Source: a virus
DNA length: 53,201 nucleotides
IMG/VR virus record: IMGVR_UViG_3300022816_000023
Coordinates: 1 to 53,201 of that record
Strand: one strand, 5' to 3'
Positions 5,645 to 48,298 of this stretch are shown in pieces. The notes beneath the pieces were generated by a model that was given only the letters and a program-made list of their open reading frames with translations, made no database searches and was not told the DNA's origin. Made by a program: the position numbers and the translations under genes. Within the stretch, counting starts at the first letter, position 1. Every line of letters starts with the position of its first letter.

Positions 5645-6124
5645 CTAATTTCCTCCATACGTGACCACATAAAAGCGGTCATCCAGGATTTCTGAAATAG
5701 TAGGCTTAACATTTTCGAATAAAAGCCCACCTCGGCCACAACCGGGCCTCGGCAAACAGATAGACTTCCAGCCATAATGATCGGCCATCCTCACAAGTAG
5801 TCGTGCTGACTTCTGAATCAGCAACAGTGAAGAATCATCCCTCCAATGATTCTTTGTAGGAAATGACACAACGTTCATTGTATGCCATTCACCTTGAGGG
5901 AATGCAATATTAACCCCCAACTGACAGAGAATAGGCACATTCTTCATATCGTGTGCCTTCAACACCGCCCCGAAGTAATAAGATAGCCCTGGAACCCTCC
6001 TATTGAATTCCAAGGCAATGCCAGCACCCATAGTCAATGACCCGTCTTTCTTCAGTATATTGTTGGTGGTACAACAAATTGCATCACACTTAATACTGAA
6101 AAGATTGCCACGTATTTCTTTCAT
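5645..6124 (-). CDS. Macro-domain protein (ADP-ribose binding or hydrolysing)
   Basis: The 159-residue product is a single macro domain. It shows the N-terminal GNLF strand, CTTNN, the MGAGIALEFNRRVPG segment (32-46) that contacts the distal ribose, and PRPGCGRGGL (125-134) forming the phosphate loop. The size matches stand-alone macro domains of the ALC1/Poa1p type, which remove ADP-ribose from proteins or DNA, or act on ADP-ribose phosphate. It starts at 6124, overlapping the stop of a 28-residue gene (ATGA), and is followed two bases later by the SLOG gene. In a phage it may reverse host ADP-ribosylation or remove signalling nucleotides; that is inference from the family. Confidence 0.85.
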   Translation of the reverse strand: MKEIRGNLFSIKCDAICCTTNNILKKDGSLTMGAGIALEFNRRVPGLSYYFGAVLKAHDMKNVPILCQLGVNIAFPQGEWHTMNVVSFPTKNHWRDDSSLLLIQKSARLLVRMADHYGWKSICLPRPGCGRGGLLFENVKPTISEILDDRFYVVTYGGN

Positions 6125-17683: not shown

Positions 17684-17723
17684 GCTCTAGTTCTTATAGG
17701 TGTATCTATTAACACCTACTACC

Positions 17724-20700
17724 ATGTCTAGTCAAATTGATATTAACAAATTAAGTCCTGAAGAATTAGAATTATTCGCTGATATAAACAAAGACCCTAT
17801 AGCTTTTGGTGAAACATTCTTAATAGTTCCTTCAGATGACCATGAACCAAAGCCTTTTCGTGCTAACTACTCCCAACGTGCTATTATGCGGGCCAAGAAA
17901 AAGACGGTTTATATAGCTTGTCTTAGTAGGGATTCACAGGTTATAGACCCTATCACCTTACGCCCTATTCCAATTTACCAAGCAGAACACGTTAGAAAAA
18001 CTTTATGTTTTGATTTCTATCAAAATAAATTAGTTTGGACTAATTGTACATGGTCTGAATCTGGGCAGAAGAAGTGTATTAAACTGAATCTAGGTAGTGG
18101 TATTGATATTAGCCCTAGTGAAGACCATGAAGTGTATGAACGTAAAAAGGGTTGGATTAGAACTGATACTTTGAAAATAGGTGATAAAATATTAAGTCCT
18201 TCTGTTATTTCTATACAAGGCTCATTGATAAGAAGTGATGTAATACTGAAAGAATGTGTAGAACGTGGTTTAAGAAATGGCACCTTCGATGATGAAGTAT
18301 TCCAGTACACCGATGATTGTTTATCATCATTCTTTTTACACTTGTGGGAATCAGTAGGCCGTTTATTACACAATGAAACTCAGATTTCATTCATGGTTCA
18401 TAGTAGAGACCTTGCTTTAGAACTCCACCACCTATTACTCAGATTAGAAATTACCTGTAGAATTGATGAAGATGGTAATGTTTTCATTGATGAACCTATA
18501 GATTTAAATTTCTTTCTGAATACAATAGGATATGATTGTCCTATTCATGATGCTAAATCCCCTAGACGATGGGAAATTGTTACAGATATAAAACGAATAG
18601 GACTGAGAGATGTATATGATTTATCAGTTGAACATGAAGACCACAACTTTTTAGCCTCAGATATTATAGTTCATAATTGTAGCCGCAGGTCGGGTAAGTC
18701 GATGTGCCTTACAGTACTGGCTTTATGGCACGCAATTACAAAGAATAATAAGAAAATTCTCTTCTTTGCCAACTCCAGTAAACAAGTTGATGCCTGGTTT
18801 GAAGTCTTAGATGGATGGATACGTTCGTCGGAGTTTGTTAAATCTTTTCAGGACCCTAAAGGAATCAATAGGTCATCTCCACAGCGTAGGTCATTTATAA
18901 CTAACTCTTATATAGCTGGGTATATCTTAACAGACCAAGAATCCTGCCGTGGCTTAACTTCAGATGTTTGTCTCCCCTATAAAGAAAGGGTATTAACAGA
19001 TATTGGCTATCTTCCTATTGGAGATATTGTAGAAAAAGGGCTAGGGGAAAAAGTACTATCCTATAATCCAAAAACAGAGCAATTGGAATGGAAGAAAATA
19101 TTAAAGAGAATAACTAACCCATTATTAGATAGACAGTACAATATTCTGGAAACTCCTTTTGGGGAATTGTGCTGTACAGAAGACCATCCTATTTTTACAG
19201 AAAGAGGTTATATCCAAGCTAATGAATTATTAAAAGGCGACATTATATATTATGATAACACCAGAAACGACTTTAACTGCTCAGGAAAGACAAGTTCTAT
19301 TAGGAACAATGTTGGGAGACGGATATTGTGCATTACCCACGAAAGGGAGCAGGAATGCACGATTGACAATGAGACATGGACCGAAGCAAAAGGATTACTT
19401 AGACTGGAAGTACAATCAGTTAAGCAGATGGTTCCACAATCCACCACACTCAGAGGTGAATCAAGGTTACGGAGAAATCTCCCATATTGCGGTGAGTATG
19501 TGTCATCCAGTATTCACAGAAATAACAAACCTGTATTACCAAAACAAGAAGAAAATAATTACAAGAGAAATATTAGACCAATTAGGTCCTTTAGGAATAG
19601 CAGTATGGTTCATGGACGATGGTTCCCGTTCCAAATACACTTTTCAACTACATACAGAGGGATTTTCAGAACAGGAGAGTATCTTAATAGCAGAATATTT
19701 AACGAAAAAACTAAATGGCCCAGTTATAGTGAGACAATACAAAACGTACCACAGAATAGAAATTCAAATGGAAGCCAGGACTCATTTAATAGAAATGATA
19801 AAGGAATTTCTACCAGAATCTATGATGTACAAGATAGATATTCCATTTCTGAAGACAATAAGAAAATGTCGATATTGCCAGAAAGAATTTTACCCTCTTC
19901 GCAATGTTCAAGAAAAGACAGGACATTTCTTTTGTCAGGAATGTGCTACAATAAGATACAGGGAATACAAGAAAGACCCGGAAAATCGAATCAAGTGGAA
20001 TACAAGAAGAAAAGAATTGGCAAAACTGAAGAAGTTGTCTACGACCTCACAATAGAAGATAATCACAACTTCTTTGCAGAAGGAATTCTTATTTCAAACT
20101 GTTTTGTGGACGAGGCACAGAGCCTTTCTGATGATGACTGGAGTGTATTGAAGCCTATTATGGTAGGGGATATGTATCGTTCAGCACATATTAGAAACTA
20201 TTTGGCTGGTACAATCAAGGAACCCACTGGGCAATTCTATCATAGAGTTAAGAAACAGGGGGGTGACGAAGTTACTAATTTAATCTTTATACCTGTAACT
20301 AAGAATAAAGATTACACTGAAGAAATGATACGGGCAATTAGATTGGAAGTTTCAGAAGCTGAATTCCAGACTGAATTTTTACTGGAAGTGGGAACTAGTG
20401 AAGACTCTGTATTTAATTCTAAAGATATCCAAAGAGCAGCTACTGATGATATGTATTATGGGAAACAGAATATTAAAGAATCATCTAACTTCTTCAGATT
20501 CATGGGGGTTGACTGGGATAAGGTACAAGCTGGAACAAATATTGCTGTTGTACAATATAATAAAATCACCCAAGATATGCAAGTGATTTATAGAGAGGAA
20601 GTTGAGAAAGGTAAATTTAGTTATACAGCAGCAGTCGCTAAAGTTATAGAATTGTATATGCACTTCGCCCCTGATATTGTCACAGCTGACCAAGGCCAAG

Positions 20701-21245
20701 GAGAAAAGCAGTGGGAGGACCTAGTTCTAGAATCTGAAAGAAGGGGATTGGATTTACATAACCGATTGATTAAATTACCTTTTCAGAGTAAAGTTGAAGT
20801 TCCTAATATGCTTACAGGGGAAATTGAAAGGAAACTCATAAAGCCATTACTAGTTGGTATCTTACAATCTAAACTCCAAGAATCTAGATTAAAGTTCCCA
20901 GCTGAAGATGATGTTTTAAAGAATCAATTATTAGGGTATAAGATTAAAAAGACAACTGAAAATACTATTAAGTATTCCAGTTCTAATGAACATATTATAG
21001 ATTGTTTATCATTCTGTGCTTATGGAATATGGTTATGTTTCGAGAATATAATGGGGCAACGATATTTAGAAAGAAATGCTGATTTCCAAGTTATTGAAAA
21101 TGAAACTAATAAATTCACTGATGAAAGACTCTTAGAGAATTTCTGGAGTCAATTAGAAGGGGAAAGGTCTCTTGGAGAAGGAGTAGATGTCTTCAGGTCT
21201 TCATTTTCAATGAATGGTCCAGGACCTATGAGGAGTAGCTGGTGA
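17724..21245 (+). CDS. terL: Terminase large subunit interrupted by two inteins
   Basis: The DNA-packaging motor. The start is set at ATG 17724; a GTG at 17700 would add eight residues. The precursor has 1173 residues, and removal of inteins of 253 and 377 residues leaves about 543, normal for TerL. The ATPase has Walker A (CSRRSGKSM, from residue 319) and Walker B with its glutamate (CFVDEAQ, from 793). The C-terminal RNase H-like nuclease has Asp in GVDWDK (930), TADQGQ (989) and IIDCLS (1093). One intein sits directly before each Walker motif, so splicing is required for activity. The stop overlaps the next start (GTGA). A diverged paralogue of the ATPase part lies at 40990-41415. Confidence 0.95.
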   Translation: MSSQIDINKLSPEELELFADINKDPIAFGETFLIVPSDDHEPKPFRANYSQRAIMRAKKKTVYIACLSRDSQVIDPITLRPIPIYQAEHVRKTLCFDFYQNKLVWTNCTWSESGQKKCIKLNLGSGIDISPSEDHEVYERKKGWIRTDTLKIGDKILSPSVISIQGSLIRSDVILKECVERGLRNGTFDDEVFQYTDDCLSSFFLHLWESVGRLLHNETQISFMVHSRDLALELHHLLLRLEITCRIDEDGNVFIDEPIDLNFFLNTIGYDCPIHDAKSPRRWEIVTDIKRIGLRDVYDLSVEHEDHNFLASDIIVHNCSRRSGKSMCLTVLALWHAITKNNKKILFFANSSKQVDAWFEVLDGWIRSSEFVKSFQDPKGINRSSPQRRSFITNSYIAGYILTDQESCRGLTSDVCLPYKERVLTDIGYLPIGDIVEKGLGEKVLSYNPKTEQLEWKKILKRITNPLLDRQYNILETPFGELCCTEDHPIFTERGYIQANELLKGDIIYYDNTRNDFNCSGKTSSIRNNVGRRILCITHEREQECTIDNETWTEAKGLLRLEVQSVKQMVPQSTTLRGESRLRRNLPYCGEYVSSSIHRNNKPVLPKQEENNYKRNIRPIRSFRNSSMVHGRWFPFQIHFSTTYRGIFRTGEYLNSRIFNEKTKWPSYSETIQNVPQNRNSNGSQDSFNRNDKGISTRIYDVQDRYSISEDNKKMSILPERILPSSQCSRKDRTFLLSGMCYNKIQGIQERPGKSNQVEYKKKRIGKTEEVVYDLTIEDNHNFFAEGILISNCFVDEAQSLSDDDWSVLKPIMVGDMYRSAHIRNYLAGTIKEPTGQFYHRVKKQGGDEVTNLIFIPVTKNKDYTEEMIRAIRLEVSEAEFQTEFLLEVGTSEDSVFNSKDIQRAATDDMYYGKQNIKESSNFFRFMGVDWDKVQAGTNIAVVQYNKITQDMQVIYREEVEKGKFSYTAAVAKVIELYMHFAPDIVTADQGQGEKQWEDLVLESERRGLDLHNRLIKLPFQSKVEVPNMLTGEIERKLIKPLLVGILQSKLQESRLKFPAEDDVLKNQLLGYKIKKTTENTIKYSSSNEHIIDCLSFCAYGIWLCFENIMGQRYLERNADFQVIENETNKFTDERLLENFWSQLEGERSLGEGVDVFRSSFSMNGPGPMRSSW
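17919..18677 (+). mobile_element. Intein 1 in TerL, before Walker A, with degenerate endonuclease
   Basis: 253 residues from Cys1 (CLSRDSQVIDP) to a terminal His-Asn (IIVHN), followed by Cys+1 of the extein. Block B is present with His (SPSEDHEVYE) and block F reads VYDLSVEHEDHNF. The middle of about 120 residues retains the style of a DOD-type LAGLIDADG endonuclease (SRDLALELHHLLLRLEI), but the acidic LAGLIDADG motif is replaced (FLHLWESVGRL) and a first motif is missing. It should splice but no longer home by itself. Joining the flanks restores YIACSRRSGKS. Confidence 0.9.
18969..20099 (+). mobile_element. Intein 2 in TerL, before Walker B, hosting an out-of-frame endonuclease
   Basis: 377 residues from Cys1 (CLPYKERVLTDIGYLPIGD) to Ser-Asn, then Cys+1 of CFVDEAQ. 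Block B is CTEDHPIFT; block F is VYDLTIEDNHNFF. The residue before Asn is Ser rather than the usual His. Splicing sequence occupies only the first 94 residues and about the last 25. The roughly 250 residues between have no recognisable domain in this frame (polar, rich in Asn, Ser, Arg, Lys), because that DNA encodes a LAGLIDADG endonuclease in the next frame. The intein frame nevertheless has no stop codon there, so the terminase precursor stays intact. Confidence 0.9.
19252..20055 (+). CDS. LAGLIDADG homing endonuclease encoded out of frame inside intein 2
   Basis: 267 residues in the +1 frame relative to TerL, wholly inside intein 2. The product has both catalytic helices of a LAGLIDADG_2-type enzyme: LLGTMLGDGY (16-25) and LGIAVWFMDDGS (114-125), with the usual spacing and the conserved T-x-x-F-S-x-x-E (135-141). 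A C-terminal zinc finger follows (C206, C209, C228, C231) with a basic tail. Both acidic residues are kept, so it looks active. The ATG at 19252 has only a distant AAAAGG (14 bases). It could be made by internal initiation on the terminase mRNA. It would cut intein-less terL and so spread intein and gene together. Confidence 0.88.
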   Translation: MITPETTLTAQERQVLLGTMLGDGYCALPTKGSRNARLTMRHGPKQKDYLDWKYNQLSRWFHNPPHSEVNQGYGEISHIAVSMCHPVFTEITNLYYQNKKKIITREILDQLGPLGIAVWFMDDGSRSKYTFQLHTEGFSEQESILIAEYLTKKLNGPVIVRQYKTYHRIEIQMEARTHLIEMIKEFLPESMMYKIDIPFLKTIRKCRYCQKEFYPLRNVQEKTGHFFCQECATIRYREYKKDPENRIKWNTRRKELAKLKKLSTTSQ

Positions 21246-23065: not shown

Positions 23066-24676
23066 GTGCAAGCAGCATCCCTAGGATTAACAGTAGTCAA
23101 GACTTCTGAATTTACAGAGACTGAGACTATTAAACAGGCTAACCATACGTTAAGCGAATTCAGGTCCGACTTCGGAGCTGGATTTTCCCGTCGTGACCTT
23201 AAAATCAGACGTAATATTAAACTAGCCTATGATGCATATATAACAGATGGTCTTATTAAACAAACAGTTGATAAATATGTAGAAATGTTTATGGACTTTG
23301 ATTTTGAAGGGGAAAAGAAGCCTAAAGATTATTTAATGAAAAGGCTGAATACAATGTCTCTTCAGACTGGAGAACCCTATAAAGTTCTTTTATCCAGAGC
23401 AGTTACAGAATACTTCTTAACAGGGAATATGGTGATTCTGAAGTACAGGGGCTGGAACAATAAATCTACCAATCGTGCTTTATATGTGAATAAGCCATAC
23501 TCTATTTCAGGATTAGAATTATTCTCCATAACCAAGATGGATACCCACTTCAATAAAGATAGTGTATTCGATGGCTGGCAGGTTAGAAATTGTGGAGTTG
23601 TCACTAAGATAGATTTATTGAATCCCCGAGGAAATAGATTATCTACCGACCAATGTCTAATAGATGTTTCCCCTAAGGTATCAGATGACGATGTACTTTT
23701 ACCAGGTGTTGATTTATTACATATTTCCTATAAGAAATTAGCAGATACTAAATATGGCTATGGCTTAATCTTAGCTGGGTTAGAGGATTTTGCTTTAATT
23801 AGGAAGTTAGAATTAACTACTGCTATAATGTGGCAGAAATTCTCAATGCCCTTGTTCCACCACACTATAGAAAGAACGGCAACTCCATTACAGGGTCAGC
23901 AGAATGATATAGTTGCTGCTTATGCAATGCACCAACGTAAATCTCCTGATGGATTTATTGTGACTGGGGCTAACCATAAAATAACTGCAATAGGTGCAGA
24001 GTCACAAGCTATGAGAGTTGAAGGATACTTAAAGTATTTCTCCTCAAGAGCTTGTTCCAGCATTGGAATCAGTACATATCTATTAGGATTAGAATCTGGA
24101 ACACTAGGTACTGTTCAGACAGCAACTGAAAACTTAAACGATAAGGTACGCTGGTGTATGAAAGATATTTCATGGCAAATGCAGCCATTGATTAATGAAA
24201 TCTTATGGGAAGGTGGATTCGACCCTTACACTAATCCTGAGAAAGAATCGGTTAAATTAGTCTTTGAGGATATTGATGTTGATAGAACTATTAAAGCTGA
24301 AGCACACGCTACTGATATGTTCACTAAGAATGCAATAGACCATGACCAACTACAAGCTAAATTGAAGAATAAGAAGGGTGTTAATGATAGCCGCCTCTAT
24401 TCTAATATGATTGATAAGCCTAAGATTGATCATGAAGCAGCGGCTAAGATACGGGTGGAGAAATCCAAGCCTAAGCCGAGAACTGTACGAGAGCAGGTTG
24501 AGAAAATCCTTCCTAGAGATGAAGGGGATTTAGAAGATTTTATCTTCTTAATGACTAGGAGATATGGTTATTCACAGGAGCAATTCCAAGAAATAAGCCA
24601 TACCATGATAGAGTTAGTTAACGATGAAGACGCATTCATAGAATTAATAGTTCAATTACTAGCAGATGAAGAATAA
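23066..24676 (+). CDS. Portal protein
   Basis: 536 residues with GTG start at 23066. The sequence has the layout of portal proteins: an N-terminal wing with several short strands, then VDLLHISYKKLADTKYGYG followed by a long helix (LAGLEDFALIRKLELTTAIM), the typical pre-stem region, and a helical crown with a charged C-terminus rich in Lys and Glu. Size and position between terminase and maturation genes fit. The portal forms the dodecameric ring at the head vertex, binds the terminase during packaging and the connector proteins afterwards. Confidence 0.8.
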   Translation: MQAASLGLTVVKTSEFTETETIKQANHTLSEFRSDFGAGFSRRDLKIRRNIKLAYDAYITDGLIKQTVDKYVEMFMDFDFEGEKKPKDYLMKRLNTMSLQTGEPYKVLLSRAVTEYFLTGNMVILKYRGWNNKSTNRALYVNKPYSISGLELFSITKMDTHFNKDSVFDGWQVRNCGVVTKIDLLNPRGNRLSTDQCLIDVSPKVSDDDVLLPGVDLLHISYKKLADTKYGYGLILAGLEDFALIRKLELTTAIMWQKFSMPLFHHTIERTATPLQGQQNDIVAAYAMHQRKSPDGFIVTGANHKITAIGAESQAMRVEGYLKYFSSRACSSIGISTYLLGLESGTLGTVQTATENLNDKVRWCMKDISWQMQPLINEILWEGGFDPYTNPEKESVKLVFEDIDVDRTIKAEAHATDMFTKNAIDHDQLQAKLKNKKGVNDSRLYSNMIDKPKIDHEAAAKIRVEKSKPKPRTVREQVEKILPRDEGDLEDFIFLMTRRYGYSQEQFQEISHTMIELVNDEDAFIELIVQLLADEE

Positions 24677-29850: not shown

Positions 29851-30879
29851 ATGAATCAAAATAATAAAGAGATTAATATCTCACAAGTCTGGGGCATCTA
29901 TCTTATCTCGAATAAGGTGGATGCTTCTTTTTATGTTGGGTCTACAGCTAGGTCATTTGCAAAACGGTGGTCTGACCATAGAAGAGCTTTTAATGCTGGT
30001 AAAAACTCCCCTTATCTACAACACGCCTGGAATAAGTATGGGGAAGAAAACTTTGAATTCTCTGTATTAGAAGTTGTGGAGTCTAAAGATAAATTGGTTG
30101 TACTGGAAAGAGAACAATATTGGATTGATTACCTTAAACCAGAATACAACATCAACCCTAAAGCTGAAAGTAGATTAGGGTCTAAACAAACTCCTGAAAC
30201 CATTGCTAAAATTAGTGGATATGTACCGTGGAATAAAGGATTGAAATACCACAAAACCCCAGAACAAGTAGAAGCAATGAAACTAATTCGTGGGGAACAA
30301 CACCACTGTTACGGTGGGCATATGTCTGAAGAAGCTAAAAGGAAATCTGCTCTATCACACAAGAAACTTACCACGGAACAAGAACAAGAAGCGTATGAAT
30401 TATACCTTAGTGGAGAATATTCTATTGATGAATTAAAAGATAAGTTCAATTGTACTTTTGACCCAATTAGGAATTCTATACTAAAGAAACTGAAAGAAAA
30501 AGATTCTACTATTATATCACTAAGGGAAGCCCAGAAAGTAGGTTTAATAAGAAGAACTAAGACCAAATTCAAGAATCCTGAAGAACGCGGTAAAAAATTA
30601 AGTGAAATTCAAAGTTTTAGTTACAAACATACTGAGTTAGTTCCACTAATCTTTTCAGATTATAATAGCGGAGAAACTATTAGTAAATTAATGATTACAT
30701 ATAAGGCTACATTCTCAACTCTTTCTTCAGTATTAAAGAAAGAATATAAAAAGATTGGTATTGAAACCCACCACTTGAAACAATCTCGTAAACAATACTT
30801 AAACTCTATTGATATGAACGATATTATATTGTTGGGACCACAAGATCGTAGCGTGAGCGAGAAGACAAGTAGGTCATAA
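29851..30879 (+). CDS. Free-standing GIY-YIG homing endonuclease after the capsid gene
   Basis: 342 residues. GIYLIS and FYVGSTARSFAKRWSDHRR form the GIY-YIG core (residues 15-45), followed by HAWNKYGEENFEF and the catalytic Glu region (LEREQYWIDYL). NUMOD3-type patches follow (KQTPETIAKISG, KTPEQVEAMK, MSEEAKRKS), then two helix-turn-helix-like units. It is intact and unlike the first GIY-YIG protein outside the catalytic core. It is inserted between the capsid gene and the next virion gene, a frequent site for phage homing genes, since cutting conserved capsid DNA favours spread. Confidence 0.9.
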   Translation: MNQNNKEINISQVWGIYLISNKVDASFYVGSTARSFAKRWSDHRRAFNAGKNSPYLQHAWNKYGEENFEFSVLEVVESKDKLVVLEREQYWIDYLKPEYNINPKAESRLGSKQTPETIAKISGYVPWNKGLKYHKTPEQVEAMKLIRGEQHHCYGGHMSEEAKRKSALSHKKLTTEQEQEAYELYLSGEYSIDELKDKFNCTFDPIRNSILKKLKEKDSTIISLREAQKVGLIRRTKTKFKNPEERGKKLSEIQSFSYKHTELVPLIFSDYNSGETISKLMITYKATFSTLSSVLKKEYKKIGIETHHLKQSRKQYLNSIDMNDIILLGPQDRSVSEKTSRS

Positions 30880-40166: not shown

Positions 40167-40859
40167 ATGATACTCGGAAAAGATAAGGTAACACCAAAAA
40201 TTGTAGCAGAAGCTAAGGCGATACTAGGCCCTGAAATTGCTATTTACCACTATAAAGATAAGACTGGAAGATACGAAGCTATTTTCAAAGAAATCAACCA
40301 TGATTTAATGAAACGTATTCGTACTAGAATCAAAGAAGAAACACTGAAGAATAATCTTCTACCAATGGAAGAAATCAATGATATGGTCTTTGATGAATGT
40401 ATTATCTGGCCGCCAGTATCAACGGAAGATAAGAATAACCTACCAGTTGGTAAGATTGTTGATATAGTTAAATCTATTCAAGAGAAGAGTGGATTCTTAG
40501 ATGTTGACCTAGCTGAAAGACCTTTAAGACCTGATATTTATACAGAAATTATTCAGGATTTTGATTATTGGCCTTCTATCACTAAAGAAGAAATAGTAGA
40601 ACTGAAAGAGAAGATTCCATTTCAGTTATTCAAAGTTGAGATTGGTGGATTTGAATTTGTTATAAGACCATTAACTAAGGCTGATATATTTTTGGTAAAT
40701 TCTTCCCAAGACGAGCAAAGTACAGCCTGTAAAGCAGTTACAGTATGGCCTACAAAGGTCCCGTGGGAAACTCTTAGCGGCGGAGTTATACTTTTGCTCA
40801 GCCAAGAAATTACACGTGTAAGTGGCTTTAGTAGTGATTCTGAGGTAACCGAATTATGA
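40167..40859 (+). CDS. Putative tail assembly chaperone 1, 230 residues
   Basis: ATG 40167 behind AAGGA. The product is helical and acidic, with FEFVIRPLTKADIFLVNSS followed by a Cys/Val segment (TACKAVTVWPTKV), a pattern common in tail assembly chaperones that bind the tape measure. The partner at 41415 has the corresponding segment TDFVFRGVTREELRASG. Both lie before the tape-measure candidate, as expected. Here the two chaperone-like genes are separated by a homing-gene remnant and a terminase-like gene instead of being joined by a frameshift. The stop overlaps the remnant start by ATGA. Confidence 0.6.
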   Translation: MILGKDKVTPKIVAEAKAILGPEIAIYHYKDKTGRYEAIFKEINHDLMKRIRTRIKEETLKNNLLPMEEINDMVFDECIIWPPVSTEDKNNLPVGKIVDIVKSIQEKSGFLDVDLAERPLRPDIYTEIIQDFDYWPSITKEEIVELKEKIPFQLFKVEIGGFEFVIRPLTKADIFLVNSSQDEQSTACKAVTVWPTKVPWETLSGGVILLLSQEITRVSGFSSDSEVTEL

Positions 40860-40993
40860 GTCTAAAAACTATAGAACCAGTATTACAGAATTTTGGGGTC
40901 TATAGAATAGAAAATTTATTAAATGGGAAAATCTATATAGGTTCTACTATTTCGGGCTTTTCGGAGGAGGCATCGGTTAGCGAACTCCTATGA
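40856..40993 (+). pseudogene. Truncated GIY-YIG homing endonuclease remnant, 45 codons
   Basis: The frame starts at ATG 40856, overlapping the previous stop. Residues 14-31 read GVYRIENLLNGKIYIGST, a clear GIY-YIG signature with both strands. The frame then ends after 14 more residues without the catalytic Arg helix, Glu or DNA-binding part. It is therefore the decayed start of a homing endonuclease gene, still translatable as a 45-residue peptide and overlapping the next start (ATGATG). It shows that a GIY-YIG element once entered between the chaperone genes. Confidence 0.75.
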
Positions 40994-41415
40994 TGCAACA
41001 ACAAACAGCTTATGAATTATACCAAGAAAAATTTAATATCAGTAGGTTAAATAATTGTGCTGATATAGCTTTATTCAATGCTATAACACTGAAAAATAAG
41101 AAAATATTGATTGTTACTAATAAACCCTATCACTTAGATAATATCTTTGATGCAATTGATTTACGAATTAAATACTCTAACTCTCTTTCAGCTTTGTATG
41201 ATAAAGGATTTAAAACTCCCCATCCTAAAAGAGAATTCTTAACAGATTGTACTATCAATGGATATTGTATTGGAGATGAAATCCGTGGCCTAACAGCAAA
41301 TGTTGTAATCAATTATAATCCTGTATCTTTTAGTAATGAGGAATGGAAAAATATTCTACCTATTATGTCTGGGGATAGATTATCTGCTGGAAAAATGAGA
41401 CTCTATGAAGTGTAA
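40990..41415 (+). CDS. Terminase-ATPase-like protein lacking Walker residues, 141 residues
   Basis: The product lines up with the TerL ATPase domain of this same phage over about 110 residues: NAITLKNKKILIVTN with HAITKNNKKILFFAN, then EIRGLTANV with SCRGLTSDV, then SNEEWKNILPIMSGD with SDDDWSVLKPIMVGD. The Walker A site is lost (SRLNNCAD for SRRSGKSM), as is Walker B (VVINYNPVS for CFVDEAQS). The nuclease domain is absent. The region covered includes both positions where inteins sit in TerL, but no intein is present. Junctions on both sides are tight (ATGATG, TAATGG), so it is probably expressed. It may be a repurposed protein-binding fold or a decaying fragment. Confidence 0.7.
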   Translation: MMQQQTAYELYQEKFNISRLNNCADIALFNAITLKNKKILIVTNKPYHLDNIFDAIDLRIKYSNSLSALYDKGFKTPHPKREFLTDCTINGYCIGDEIRGLTANVVINYNPVSFSNEEWKNILPIMSGDRLSAGKMRLYEV

Positions 41416-42047
41416 TGGAAGACTTAGTAAAACGAGATAAGAAATTTCGTTGGTATACAATTCAATTAAAAGACCAGAATCAGTCAATGACTGATTTTGT
41501 TTTTCGTGGGGTCACTAGAGAGGAGTTACGTGCTTCTGGAACTAAACCTACGACTTATGATGGTGAGCTTTATATACTGAAACAATGTGTAGTTAATAAA
41601 ATAGATTGGGGTGCTCAATTATATTATACAGTACAGAGAATATTAGAAGAAATCTATAAATACTCTGGCTTAACTGAAGAAGCATTGACATTGAAGGAAG
41701 CTCATGCTTGGCTTACAAGTCCTACTGGTTTAATAGAAGGTGTAGCATGTACAATGATAAGTGGCTGTTCTCTAGAATCCCTTCATAATGCAGACCCCTC
41801 TTATTATGCTTATTATTGCTTATTAGGTAAGATGATGTTTGAAACTACATATGGAATGCCTGTAGACCAAGCCTTTGGGATGGAAGGCGCTGAGGGAGGA
41901 GATGTTCCTACTACTGATGGTGACCAAGAATTTATTAATGTAAAACACCAAAGAGCAGACCAGAATCCTTTCCCAGGACACGGTGAACAAGGAAAGCAAG
42001 TAGAAGTTTTTGAGTGGAAGAAGCCTAAGAAGCCACGAGGTAAATAA
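41415..42047 (+). CDS. Putative tail assembly chaperone 2, 210 residues
   Basis: ATG 41415 overlaps the previous stop (TAATG). Residues 10-60 (WYTIQLKDQNQSMTDFVFRG, then YDGELYILKQCVV) follow the pattern of the first chaperone candidate. A helical middle (EALTLKEAHAWLTSPTGLIEG) precedes a polar lysine-rich C-terminus (WKKPKKPRGK). It ends with TAATG overlapping the start of the tape-measure candidate, its expected client. Confidence 0.6.
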   Translation: MEDLVKRDKKFRWYTIQLKDQNQSMTDFVFRGVTREELRASGTKPTTYDGELYILKQCVVNKIDWGAQLYYTVQRILEEIYKYSGLTEEALTLKEAHAWLTSPTGLIEGVACTMISGCSLESLHNADPSYYAYYCLLGKMMFETTYGMPVDQAFGMEGAEGGDVPTTDGDQEFINVKHQRADQNPFPGHGEQGKQVEVFEWKKPKKPRGK

Positions 42048-45000
42048 TGCCTTTATTCAGTGGCTTGAATTATTATAGTGAAGGGCAGGAGGACCATCAT
42101 TCCTTCACACATAAATTAACTGGTATGGCTAAACTAGCTGCTATTATAGGAGTAGGTTTAGTTGCTGGAAGACCATTACTACAAGCTGCTGGTAAAGCTG
42201 GTTTAGCATTAGCTGGGGGTAAATCTGAAAGAACTATTTTAGGACTTTTAGGTTCTAAATTAGGAGTTACTTCAGAAGAAGATGTTATTCATAATATAAC
42301 AAGTGGTGCATCACAAGCATTATTTGGTTTAGGCGAACAAATAGAACAAAGCTCCATTACCTTTGCCACTAATTTCAAGCGTATTAGAGCTTTCACCGAA
42401 GCACTTGAACCACATGTAGCAGATGAGTCTAAAACAGCGTACACAGCCGCTCGTGGCCAATTAGAGGGTATGTTAGCTGAAGTAGGTCGAGCAGGTAGAG
42501 GTCATGAAACTGAAGAAACATTCTTGGGTACACATATTATTAAAAGATTCAATAGTATGTCAGAAGACTTGGGGGTTAAGTATAAATTCAATTCCCTAAA
42601 TGAACAAGAAAAAAGATTTAGAGAGTTGATAGACCAATCAGTTAATCAGAAAGCTTCCAGAGAATCTTTACAAAGTATAATGGCTTCTATTAAGAATAGA
42701 AGAACTATCATTGAAACAATGCGTAAATCGGTTGGCTACCACGGGGAAAGAACTAGAGCTACTAAGAAATTATTTGGATTTACAAAACACAAAGATATCA
42801 CCTGGGGAGATTTAGTAGACAGACCAGGGAATGAAGATACCAGAGCAGCTGTCAATCGTATGTTAGATAATATGGGGGCTTTAACCCATAGACCTGATGG
42901 CGAAACAGCAGTAGATACGCTAATTAAAAGATTCCAAGCAACTGCTGATAAACTCTTTGATTATACAGGTAGTACTGGGCTTCCTGGTTCACATCCTGAA
43001 AAGAATGAATTTATGGATATTTTCCATAAAACAGAAACTGGATTCATTAAAACAACTAAGAACGGAAGAACTGAAATAGTTCCATTGCATAAATTCAGAG
43101 CGGTTAAGGATGAATTCTTAGATAAAGCAATCAATGAATTACAAATTCCACTAGTGCCTTATAAGTTTTCAATACCAATGAAAACTTTCACTAATATGTT
43201 TAAACCTAATAGTAGAGTTATAACTCGTTTAGGTCATGCAATCAATAATCCTGAACTGATGAGGCAAGCTGGGTTTAAAGACTCTGTAACTGCCCATACC
43301 CAACTTTTAGGAACTGGAAATACCCTATTAGCTATCAGCCCTGATACGGAAAATGAAGCTGGAACAATGGGAGTTATTCAAGCTGTAGAAGGACGCTACA
43401 CTTCTTTCAGTCATTCAGATAGTGCCCACTTCAGAAGATTAACTAAAGCAAGACAAAATAAGCCTGATGATTACCTAGAAAGTTTATTCCAATTTAGAGA
43501 TAGAGACGATAAGAGTAATCTAGAAAATAGATTATATAACAATGCACAACGATTTAGTAGATTGATTTATGATGAAAAAACAGATGGCTGGAAAGTTGAA
43601 TCTAAGAGTGTTGTATTCAATCCTTTAGTTAGAAAATTATATGGTACCGGTTTTAATGTTGCTGTAGAAGACTTACACCCATTACAGTTAATGGATTACT
43701 TAAAAGACTCCGCACATAGTTTAGGTTTGAAAGATAAGAGTCCTATAGCCTATAATAAAGCCATTAACTATTTAATCAATCAAGCTAGTCAAGGCACTAC
43801 TGATATTTCAGAAGAACTAATTAGAATAGGTCGTGAATATAATTATGGCTCTAGAAAACTAGACTTTTCTAAAACATTTGATGGAGCTATACGTAGAATG
43901 CTCCTCAATGCTGATAATCCAGAAGAACTTCGAGAATCATTGAATCTTAGATATAAAGGCCAGCAATCCACTCATACAGGTAAACCTGATATTATAACCA
44001 ATTTAGATTCTGAATTATCTAAGGAAACTTCTTATAAATTCTCTCGTGCTATTTCTATGTTGGGAGGAGAGAAACAAGGACACTTAAGTAATACTACTCC
44101 TAAAGAAGGTGGTATTATTCAAGGTGTTCTGAATAGTACACTAGGTCATGATGGGATTTCTACTCCACTATCTCAACTACAAACAGGTTTATTAGCTGAA
44201 GTGGTTCATGGAATGGGAGTCCAAAAGATTCAAGATTTATTAGGCGATACCTCCCTGATAAACCTAACACATAGTCTTGAAGATAATCTTGATTTAAGCC
44301 ATCCCCTTATAGATTTTATGAAAGATAAGGGATTTAGTACCAATCAAATTAGAAGTGCCTTTTCAGGAATACTAGAGAAACGTACTAAAGACGGAGAACA
44401 ATTTGAAGCAATAAATCGGTCTCGTTTAGGAGAACTAGGTTCTTTATTATTAGATAATAAAGAGTTAGGTGGATTATCATCTAATGAACATGTTAGGATG
44501 AACATCCTAGACATCATGAGCCAGCATGTGCAAGGGAAGGGCCTTCTAGATACAGTGACTCTTGAAAAGAGAAATTATATCTTAACCAAAATGAGTGAAG
44601 ATTTTGATTTGGCAGATGCTCTTAAAAATAGATTTAAGATGGGGAGACCATTCCACCCTGAAGAACTAACTGATAATCCATTCTCAGATGCAACTAATTT
44701 TGTAGTTAGAACTAACATCCCTTCTCTTTCAGAACTATATAATATGTCAGGTGATGAAAGATTAGCATTCTTGACTGATATGACTAAGAATGGTTTTGGT
44801 ATAGGAGATTATCTAAAAGCATTAGGAAGACCTGAAGCAGCCCATGGACAGCTATCAGCTTTAACTCAGGTCTTATTACAGACTCCTCAGAATATTGGAA
44901 AAGAAATTGGATTAGGTATTCCAGAACAAGACCGTATTACAACTTTAAGGTCTATACTAGGTTATGGACTGAAAAGAGTGTTACCTTTATATGTGGGTGT

Positions 45001-48000
45001 TGAGGCTTATAAGAATATCAATGCTAATATGCATCATGCTGGATTGTTAGGTCTAGATGATATGGCAGCTAATCTATTAGCCAATGGTAGATTATCCTTA
45101 GCCAGTATTAAAGACCTTGTAGGGGCAACTGGAATGGATAAGGGATTAGTATATTCTATTCCAGGACTAGACCAGTATTTCACACCACGTAGTAGAGATG
45201 AAGAACAAGAATACTTACACTACGGAGATGAAGCAGTAAGACAAGGACGTTTTTGGTTTATAGGTTCTAGGAGTAATTTGACTGGAGGTGCTGTAGACTA
45301 TTATAGACCTAATTTCTATAGAAGATGGACTAGCCACTGGACTGAAGCAGATAATGTAGATATAAGTAATCCAGAACATTCATGGCTTCCAAATACTCAA
45401 AATGTTTTAGGAATATTCAACCCTAAAGTATTCTTACATCCTCATTGGTGGGAAGAGAAACACGCCCAAGACCGGCCTTATGGTACATTCACAGGAGTAC
45501 ATGAGCCAACAGGTTACACCATAAACTCTTCTTCAGCTTATGGTTCTATGGGAATTGGAACATTCGGTGGTGGTTATAATCCTGGAATGTATGGTGGTGG
45601 ACCAGGACATGGTTCTGGTGGCGGGGCAATACCAACTAATGCACAAGGCGACCCTGAGTATGCTTCAGGTGATAAAATACACTTAGGGTTCCATAAAGAA
45701 CAATCTCTTATGGACCTACGTTATCTAACACCCTATAATATGTTCGCTAGGGGAGTTCATATTGCTAGAGAGCAGATGGGTCTTTATGGTGCCTTGATGC
45801 AGAGATTACCATTTTATCCAGAAGAACATGGTGCCTTTGATATTCAAACACCACATAATGCAAGGTCATTGAATAGACTTCTATGGGGTGGTGATTACGG
45901 TGAACTAACTGGATTATATGGAGAATTTGGTAGAAGATTTGTTCCTATGGAAAATCAAGACTTAGATGCCTATAATGAAAATCCCAATAATTCTCCTAGT
46001 TGGCTACCTACTAAATTCCACCACGGAGATATGTATATGCGTACAGGCGCTGGAGAACTTAATTTACCTGGTGAGAGCTATCTTCAAAGCCATAAGTGGG
46101 TGAGTCCTATGAAGGTTCGTGGTTCTGTTATAGGTGGAACTGAACAAGAGATTATTGATTCATGGCTCAACCCTATGAAAGAACTTGAAGGTGATGGAGT
46201 TGAGGATGTGGTCGATTTTGGCAGCTTTGCTCATAGAGCTATACAGCATCAAATAAATGATTTAGGTATATTAGTAGGTGCTGAAACATCAATATATGAT
46301 AAAGAACATAATATTTCAGGAACTATTGATGCTATTGTTAATGGAGATTCAGGACCTGAGATAGTTGATATTAAAACTCAAGGTTCTAAAGGATGGGGAC
46401 ACACTCCTGATAAGTATATAGACCAGATTAATACCTATATGGCAATCACAGGGTATCATAGAGCCCACCTAGCCTTTGTTAATAGAGATAATATGTCTCA
46501 GACTCGTATAGAAGATTATGACTTCGACCCTGAAAGATGGAAGAATACCCTAGAGAAAGTTGAAAGAGCAAGAGCAGTTGTTCAGCAAATGTCAGCAGAT
46601 GGAGATGTGAGTCCATTTGAAACATATGATTTATTATCACGTATTGAAATACTAGCTAAGGTTGCACCTAATAGTCCTGAGTACAGAGCAGCTATTGAAT
46701 TCGCTGAGAAAGGTGGAGGATTTGGTGGATTTGAAAAACAAAGATTAAATCAAGCTATAGGTCAAGCTAAGAAACTGAAAGAAAAGTATAATTTATATCC
46801 TTTGAGATATAATGTACATACAGAAAACCAGAACTTAAGAGTTGATGATATAACTGATGATGGAAATATACTGACTAATCTTGGTACCATTAAATTAGCA
46901 GGAGTTAAGTGGGATAATCAGGCTTTTGGTCTAGATGATGCTTCAGATGTCTTAGCTCATTATGGAATACATCGTGGAGGGTATATCAATGCACGATTAC
47001 TGAAAGGACAATTAAATCCTGAACTTATGATTGATGAGCCATTAGAGGCTATTGTAGGATTAACCAATGAAAGATTAATACGTTCTAAATATGCTAAACC
47101 TGATTTAGAGAATAGAAATCCTTTATCAACCCAAGTAGTGTTCCATAATTCACTGCTAAAAAAGATAGAAGAAAAGATTATTCACTCTGATAATATGCTC
47201 TCGAATAAAATTTTTAGAACTAGAACTGGTCTTGAACAATTTGAAAGGGGGGAAGTTTATGGTACTGACCGTTCACGTCTTTCAGCTATTTATGATACAA
47301 TGATAGTTCCCACAGTTCAATCTTTTATTCATAAAGACCCTATATCTGCTGGGATTGCTGGGGCATTATTAACAGGAATGTTCTTCAGGTCTAAGGATGC
47401 TAGAATACAAGCCATGAAAATAGGTGCTCTAGCTTTCTCTTCTATGTCAATGATTAGAATGACTGAAGAACTAGCTACAGGTAAACCTTGGACTCCACAT
47501 AGATATAAGAGAAGTATAGAATTCGATGAATATTGGGATACCTTAAATTACCTTAAGGAAACTGCTAATGCTGAGGGAGCTAAAGAGAAAGCTAAGCAAG
47601 AAGAGGGAGTTGATATTGATTCCTTGAACTCTAATGAAGAGAGGGTTAATAAGAACATTGGTCCTTGGAGCATTCTAGCTATTAATGCCGATAGAAAGGC
47701 TCGTGAGACCATGTACGGTTACAACGAGGCAGCAGGGAGCTTACAGCAGGCTTTAGCGGCCATTCCTGATAGGCATAGACAGATTGCTGAATCTTTAATC
47801 ACTACTGGCTCTACTAAAGAGAAGACTAAATTCTATGATTTATTAGGTGATTCTGAAAGAAGAGTGTTAGGTAAATTCTTGGGAGTTAAACATAGAGATA
47901 TTCCTCAGAGACAAGATTTAACTCATTATTTCAAGAGTCATTTCTTACCAGGACCTGAATGGGATGGATGGTCAGGGAATTCTGATATGAATGACCTGAA

Positions 48001-48298
48001 GACTCGCTCAGCAGCTTTAGAAGATATTAAGGTTGACCAACCTAGTCGTGAAAGAGTTGAGAAGGCAAGAGCTTATAGTAAAGGAATTGCAATTCCTAGA
48101 ATGGATAACCCCACAATAGGGATGGTGCGTTCAGCTATCAATGATGTAATAAGGAGTGGTGGATATAATAGACTGGATGTTAGTTATTCCATTCACCCTT
48201 CTACTAAGAACGTAATTAATGTCGATACGGATTTATTTGAAGACAAAACTAATGAACTAATACACCAGATGAGAGAGCAATCTCAATCTGGTAGCTAA
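42047..48298 (+). CDS. Tape-measure-sized protein with an internal PD-(D/E)XK nuclease domain
   Basis: 2083 residues. Position after the tail chaperones and length make it the tape-measure candidate; at about 1.5 angstrom per residue it would imply a tail near 0.3 micrometre. An N-terminal hydrophobic segment (AKLAAIIGVGLVAGRPLL) and a later one near 1768 (GIAGALLTGMFF) could be membrane-active. Residues about 1385-1490 form a RecB/Cas4-type nuclease: FGSFAHRAIQH, GTIDAIV (about 1424-1430), EIVDIKTQ (1438-1445), QINTYM (about 1459), with all catalytic positions present. A Gly/Met-rich stretch lies near 1165-1205. The nuclease could act on host or phage DNA during entry. Confidence 0.8.
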   Translation: MPLFSGLNYYSEGQEDHHSFTHKLTGMAKLAAIIGVGLVAGRPLLQAAGKAGLALAGGKSERTILGLLGSKLGVTSEEDVIHNITSGASQALFGLGEQIEQSSITFATNFKRIRAFTEALEPHVADESKTAYTAARGQLEGMLAEVGRAGRGHETEETFLGTHIIKRFNSMSEDLGVKYKFNSLNEQEKRFRELIDQSVNQKASRESLQSIMASIKNRRTIIETMRKSVGYHGERTRATKKLFGFTKHKDITWGDLVDRPGNEDTRAAVNRMLDNMGALTHRPDGETAVDTLIKRFQATADKLFDYTGSTGLPGSHPEKNEFMDIFHKTETGFIKTTKNGRTEIVPLHKFRAVKDEFLDKAINELQIPLVPYKFSIPMKTFTNMFKPNSRVITRLGHAINNPELMRQAGFKDSVTAHTQLLGTGNTLLAISPDTENEAGTMGVIQAVEGRYTSFSHSDSAHFRRLTKARQNKPDDYLESLFQFRDRDDKSNLENRLYNNAQRFSRLIYDEKTDGWKVESKSVVFNPLVRKLYGTGFNVAVEDLHPLQLMDYLKDSAHSLGLKDKSPIAYNKAINYLINQASQGTTDISEELIRIGREYNYGSRKLDFSKTFDGAIRRMLLNADNPEELRESLNLRYKGQQSTHTGKPDIITNLDSELSKETSYKFSRAISMLGGEKQGHLSNTTPKEGGIIQGVLNSTLGHDGISTPLSQLQTGLLAEVVHGMGVQKIQDLLGDTSLINLTHSLEDNLDLSHPLIDFMKDKGFSTNQIRSAFSGILEKRTKDGEQFEAINRSRLGELGSLLLDNKELGGLSSNEHVRMNILDIMSQHVQGKGLLDTVTLEKRNYILTKMSEDFDLADALKNRFKMGRPFHPEELTDNPFSDATNFVVRTNIPSLSELYNMSGDERLAFLTDMTKNGFGIGDYLKALGRPEAAHGQLSALTQVLLQTPQNIGKEIGLGIPEQDRITTLRSILGYGLKRVLPLYVGVEAYKNINANMHHAGLLGLDDMAANLLANGRLSLASIKDLVGATGMDKGLVYSIPGLDQYFTPRSRDEEQEYLHYGDEAVRQGRFWFIGSRSNLTGGAVDYYRPNFYRRWTSHWTEADNVDISNPEHSWLPNTQNVLGIFNPKVFLHPHWWEEKHAQDRPYGTFTGVHEPTGYTINSSSAYGSMGIGTFGGGYNPGMYGGGPGHGSGGGAIPTNAQGDPEYASGDKIHLGFHKEQSLMDLRYLTPYNMFARGVHIAREQMGLYGALMQRLPFYPEEHGAFDIQTPHNARSLNRLLWGGDYGELTGLYGEFGRRFVPMENQDLDAYNENPNNSPSWLPTKFHHGDMYMRTGAGELNLPGESYLQSHKWVSPMKVRGSVIGGTEQEIIDSWLNPMKELEGDGVEDVVDFGSFAHRAIQHQINDLGILVGAETSIYDKEHNISGTIDAIVNGDSGPEIVDIKTQGSKGWGHTPDKYIDQINTYMAITGYHRAHLAFVNRDNMSQTRIEDYDFDPERWKNTLEKVERARAVVQQMSADGDVSPFETYDLLSRIEILAKVAPNSPEYRAAIEFAEKGGGFGGFEKQRLNQAIGQAKKLKEKYNLYPLRYNVHTENQNLRVDDITDDGNILTNLGTIKLAGVKWDNQAFGLDDASDVLAHYGIHRGGYINARLLKGQLNPELMIDEPLEAIVGLTNERLIRSKYAKPDLENRNPLSTQVVFHNSLLKKIEEKIIHSDNMLSNKIFRTRTGLEQFERGEVYGTDRSRLSAIYDTMIVPTVQSFIHKDPISAGIAGALLTGMFFRSKDARIQAMKIGALAFSSMSMIRMTEELATGKPWTPHRYKRSIEFDEYWDTLNYLKETANAEGAKEKAKQEEGVDIDSLNSNEERVNKNIGPWSILAINADRKARETMYGYNEAAGSLQQALAAIPDRHRQIAESLITTGSTKEKTKFYDLLGDSERRVLGKFLGVKHRDIPQRQDLTHYFKSHFLPGPEWDGWSGNSDMNDLKTRSAALEDIKVDQPSRERVEKARAYSKGIAIPRMDNPTIGMVRSAINDVIRSGGYNRLDVSYSIHPSTKNVINVDTDLFEDKTNELIHQMREQSQSGS

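Follow-up and report, generated by a model that had tools for sequence, protein, structure and literature searches.

Gene arrangement in the tail operon

The window analyzed here is the whole stretch of viral DNA in IMG/VR record IMGVR_UViG_3300022816_000023, 53,201 nt long, from a very divergent, jumbo-type phage. Acinetobacter phage ME3, Bacillus phage KLEB27-3, and Moorella phage MTATph1 are remote relatives: their gene order is similar, and their terminase, portal, and capsid proteins are about 22–28% identical to those of the window. Throughout its annotation, ME3 is in turn likened to Bacillus phage 0305phi8-36. Flanked by the tail assembly chaperone genes TAC1 (upstream; 40167–40859, 230 aa) and TAC2 (downstream; 41415–42047) is an ORF of 141 codons (ORF X, 40990–41415), with an ATG start and a TAA stop. 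Next comes a tape-measure-like gene (42047–48298, 2083 aa), and a frame of 45 codons (40856–40993) lies between TAC1 and ORF X; all are on the plus strand. ORF X opens with ATGATG, which overlaps the TGA of the 45-codon frame, and its TAA overlaps the ATG of TAC2 (TAATG), so both the location between chaperone genes and the overlapping start and stop codons described in the first-pass annotation are present. No strong ribosome-binding site was found at the usual distance from ORF X. Translational coupling is plausible because its start and stop codons overlap the neighboring frames, and coupling of this kind probably lets ORF X be translated together with the tail genes; we infer that it is expressed.

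Bacillus phage 0305phi8-36 is reported to have a two-gene tail chaperonin (gp143/gp144) made without a frameshift (PMC2147016). TAC1 and TAC2 fit this arrangement, except that here the pair is split by an endonuclease stub and ORF X. TAC1 resembles two tandem chaperone-type repeats, both with an SGF motif at the end, and so does its counterpart in G031, which is the closest of the relatives for which a tail region is available. The C-terminal SGF motif of TAC1 is mirrored in TAC2 and missing from ORF X, which has no visible similarity to the TAC proteins.

The tape-measure-like protein, like those of two relatives (L162 5533–11724 and L167 5078–11266), has a set of residues resembling a PD-(D/E)XK nuclease motif by eye; Pfam gave no match. 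A short terL-like piece within the same gene (44642–44824, E = 0.001) was taken as chance, since the orthologous stretch in G031 does not share the TerL-like residues.

Homology to TerL and loss of catalytic motifs

The large terminase gene of the window (plus strand) is interrupted by two inteins, leaving exteins at approximately 17700–17918, 18678–18968, and 20100–21245. With both inteins left out, its product matches ORF X at 36% identity over 118 aa (blastp, E = 6e-18). The alignment score is 163, whereas 2000 shuffles averaged 33 and never exceeded 61; a profile built from the TerL ATPase domains of the group gives ORF X 42.8 bits; and tblastn with the TerLs of five phages recovers ORF X in each case. 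Against Pfam Terminase_6N there was no score. The homologous core covers residues 25–139 (41062–41406), with a weak extension back to about residue 12. The collinearity with TerL proposed earlier therefore holds, and the shared motifs on which it was based (AIT..NKKIL, RGLT..V, and PIM.GD) are all there.

Both Walker motifs are gone, as had been noted. In the family alignment the P-loop consensus R-R-x-G-K-[ST] is replaced by FNISRL (41032–41049), with SRL in place of GKS and the P-loop arginine lost, and the invariant Asp-Glu of Walker B is replaced by Tyr109-Asn110 (41314–41319). When conserved P-loop and Walker B sites in an alignment with the TerLs of related phages are counted as catalytic or adjacent, ORF X keeps none of six, compared with 15 of 29 other family-conserved positions (Fisher p = 0.027). 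Read from its sequence, ORF X is thus a catalytically dead TerL-ATPase paralogue, predicted to be unable to bind or hydrolyze ATP.

One functional pair is kept. Arg99-Gly100 (41284–41289) corresponds to the motif containing R139 of P74-26 TerL, described as a trans-acting arginine finger (PMC5727402); Arg99 aligns with the residue mutated in the R139A structure of that protein. Retention may be structural, since the Arg-Gly pair is conserved across nearly the whole family.

By structural alignment, ORF X covers the segment that opens with the P-loop and stops just short of the C-motif, approximately residues 160 to 285 of T4 gp17. Strand beta-1, the C-motif, the lid, and the nuclease are missing because only this stretch is covered, and no further terL fragments that might go with it were found in the window. 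The suggestion that it spans both intein sites of TerL holds for the second (V^CFVDE), which is well inside the aligned region, but the first lies at its edge. Compared with the T4-like TerL ATPases (Terminase_6N; T4 gp17, Sf6 gp2, P74-26), then, ORF X retains the Arg-Gly pair and many core positions, but it has neither Walker A nor Walker B, none of the missing elements listed above, and is a separate short gene in a tail operon.

Predicted fold

An AlphaFold2 model of ORF X reached a pLDDT of 86.7 and a pTM of 0.81 with TerL relatives in the alignment, on which it therefore depends; prediction from the single sequence was unusable (pLDDT 41.9). The first 23 residues (40990–41058) are disordered in the model. 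The top Foldseek matches were Sf6 gp2 (E = 3e-5) and T4 gp17 (E = 5e-5), and superposition on Sf6 gp2 with VIA-align gave a Z of 12.8 and an rmsd of 2.7 over 117 residues. The model thus matches TerL ATPase domains, as would be expected of the paralogue that had been proposed, with the qualification that its alignment was TerL-derived; a TerL-type fold seems to be kept. Strand beta-1 would be at the center of the sheet, and a protein lacking it may be unable to fold.

Descent and distribution in relatives

A tree built on the segment common to both places ORF X within a clade (support 96/100) made up of the window's TerL and its three nearest relatives, those of L008, G031, and G054, as sister to the TerL of its own genome (74/88, or 89/87 with fewer relatives in the tree). 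A split at the base of the TerL clade is not rejected (AU p = 0.34). The branch leading to ORF X is about six times longer than that of the window's TerL (2.03 vs 0.32). The placement and branch lengths together indicate a duplicate of the clade's TerL that has evolved about six times faster.

Two distant phages have a short stand-alone TerL-type ATPase gene upstream of terL (L016 9304–9861 and L021 5296–5988). These resemble ORF X in being separate TerL-type ATPase domains within the wider phage group, but their Walker motifs are intact, their genomic place is different, and their sequences are very distant. Orthology with ORF X is disfavored on these three grounds, and the AU test (p = 0.11) does not exclude it because branches in that part of the tree exceed 5.

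At the TAC1–TAC2 junction, ORF X was absent from all four lineages in which the junction could be read. Three have a short spacer: in G031 (TAC1 49% and TAC2 40% identical to those of the window) the gap is 46 bp, in G054 (L167) it is at most about 140 bp, and G019 (L164) is also short. G055 (L168) appears to nearly duplicate G054, as G034 does G019. The fourth, G004, has an unrelated frame of 508 aa at the junction, without ORF X; this frame (L163 4818–6344, minus strand) has a signal-peptide-like start and is bounded by TAC2 and by the gene that precedes TAC1. The annotated relatives also have no ORF X at the equivalent place.

Searches for direct homologues of ORF X found none in the phage collection (E up to 1) and none in viral contigs. 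Profile and protein searches of the junction relatives and some 40 further phage records matched mainly terL genes, and scans of genome contigs for MCP and TAC1, which used short peptide patterns and can miss relatives, turned up no relatives. ORF X is found in one contig only. The first-pass annotation had allowed that related phages might show the gene merely as a random broken fragment; instead they lack it, in broken or conserved form. Since no relative's junction has it, ORF X is, for the collections searched, an insertion special to the lineage of the window and does not belong to the conserved tail module.

This distribution bears directly on the earlier idea that an ATPase fold had been reused as a tail chaperone, so that ORF X would be a third chaperone recruited for use with TAC1 and TAC2. 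The position between those genes, with overlapping codons on either side, is what such a tail-assembly factor might be expected to show. However, G031, G019, G054, and the annotated relatives all do without it at this place, 0305phi8-36 works with two chaperonin genes, and ORF X does not resemble the TAC proteins. On synteny this role was rejected, and it is considered highly improbable.

Endonuclease stub and probable route of insertion

The 45-codon frame just upstream of ORF X begins with the N-terminus of a GIY-YIG endonuclease, absent from the first-pass annotation, with the GIY...YIG motif at its start (GVYRIENLLNGKIYIGST); it matches phrog_314 (E = 5.6e-6) and, below the cut-off, Pfam GIY-YIG (0.0017). 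Just 32 codons of this stub are left, without complete catalytic and DNA-binding domains. The last 14 codons of the frame are a second TAC1 C-terminus: the first copy, VSGFSSDSEVTEL, is at 40818–40859 and the second, ISGFSEEASVSELL, with different serine codons, at 40949–40993. The stub and the duplicated gene end are what would be expected if an endonuclease element with its own version of the gene end had inserted at the end of TAC1 and then decayed. Because they lie just upstream, homing-endonuclease recombination is the most likely way in which ORF X was placed.

An intact GIY-YIG homing endonuclease gene resembling the stub is present elsewhere in the window (29851–30879, plus strand). 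The region encoding the first 23 residues of ORF X has some likeness to it (24 of 28 nt match; the protein alignment scores 40, and shuffles reach at most 35), and this would tie ORF X itself to the endonuclease element. The likeness, which a profile search does not recover, is suggestive only. A group I intron was rejected as an explanation: Rfam had no match anywhere in the window and, with no RNA family matched, there is no known intron in it.

It had also been suggested that the gene might serve as a decoy lacking intact homing sites. DNA similarity between ORF X and terL is almost nil (at best 38 bp at 76%), so no homing site would be offered or protected, and this idea is unlikely.

Endonucleases are known to cluster near structural and terminase genes (PMC10448857). 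The stub resembles homing-endonuclease insertions near essential phage genes in adjoining an essential operon and a duplicated gene end, and differs from known ones in that the neighboring cargo is a diverged terL fragment, for which no published case was found in the literature searched. ORF X is accordingly described here as a lineage-specific, endonuclease-associated terL duplication.

Maintenance of the reading frame

Several properties of ORF X suggest past selection. Its codon bias and GC3 are those of the phage tail genes, and its indels are multiples of three. In 3000 random composition-matched sequences the longest open frame was 99 codons, shorter than ORF X. Simulated neutral divergence from TerL introduced six stops on average, with two of 1000 runs remaining stop-free, and the observed substitutions are milder than in the simulation (197 vs 155 ± 18); these neutral and frame tests presuppose that the divergence of ORF X postdates the duplication, and one copy of it is known.

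The main rival reading is of ORF X as a passenger in decay, in which an endonuclease element carried in a terL fragment that now has no function and whose frame is still open by chance. Such an origin is in keeping with its being a fragment that lacks strand beta-1 and everything from the C-motif on, with the decayed stub adjoining it, and with its occurrence in one contig and no relative. Neutral decay or base composition would not be expected to leave a stop-free frame of this length, nor indels in multiples of three with a codon usage that fits the phage. Walker residues should moreover still be visible in a fragment that had recently left a working TerL, yet all are changed in ORF X. On the passenger reading, much of the divergence would have been gained while the sequence was still part of a working TerL or of a second terminase. 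A passenger origin is a real possibility, though less likely than not.

Possible roles

With much of the TerL surface kept and the use of ATP lost, ORF X could act only through binding. Tentatively, at somewhat less than even confidence, it is proposed to be a terL-derived pseudo-ATPase that acts by mimicry of the TerL ATPase face. The TerL ATPase core would have been duplicated and truncated within the window's own TerL clade, and GIY-YIG-linked recombination would have put the duplicate between TAC1 and TAC2, where the stub still adjoins it. The product, retaining much of the ATPase surface including the Arg-Gly motif and unable to use ATP, would then bind one of the normal partners of TerL: an adjacent TerL subunit of the packaging ring, the portal protein (encoded at 23066–24676), or a TerL sensor of the host. 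Its function might accordingly be that of a motor regulator or of an immune decoy. The full scheme, in which a homing endonuclease delivered the duplication and the stand-alone pseudo-ATPase presents an arginine-finger face without an ATP site and thereby adjusts or inhibits the TerL ring, or else disables a TerL sensor, is speculative and as a whole unlikely.

The decoy role overlaps in part with this mimicry proposal. ORF X would imitate the TerL core and occupy an Avs-type terminase sensor without triggering it. Avs1–4 are described as recognizing terminase and portal (PMC12931631), the structures matched by the ORF X model include a bound phiV-1 terminase (8dgc), and a dead, truncated copy is arguably what a decoy would need. 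Against this, it presupposes a host with an Avs system and a fragment bearing the surface that a sensor recognizes, and a mimic might trigger the sensor rather than block it. This role is judged distinctly improbable.

The literature searched contains no account of a TerL ATPase core that stands alone and is catalytically dead, or of a truncated or paralogous TerL. Should ORF X be produced and bind TerL or portal, it would be a natural partner for testing subunit coordination and the location of the trans-acting arginine; if it binds an immune protein that senses TerL, it would be an anti-defense mimic of a conserved trigger. A passenger, too, would record the movement of pieces of essential genes into other operons by homing endonucleases.

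Terminase inteins and other observations

The first TerL intein of the window (17919–18677) is inserted just before the P-loop (YIA^CSRRSGKS). The clearly similar inteins of L008 (8850–11246) and G031 (L161 2376–4778) lie about seven residues away, inside the P-loop (GK^S). The frame of the second intein (18969–20099) is open through a complete LAGLIDADG endonuclease of 267 aa encoded in a different frame (19252–20055; Pfam LAGLIDADG_2, E = 6e-36), so that some 800 bases of intein coding sequence are overlapped. In the early region, a Macro-domain protein is encoded on the minus strand (5645–6124; Pfam E = 1.6e-6).
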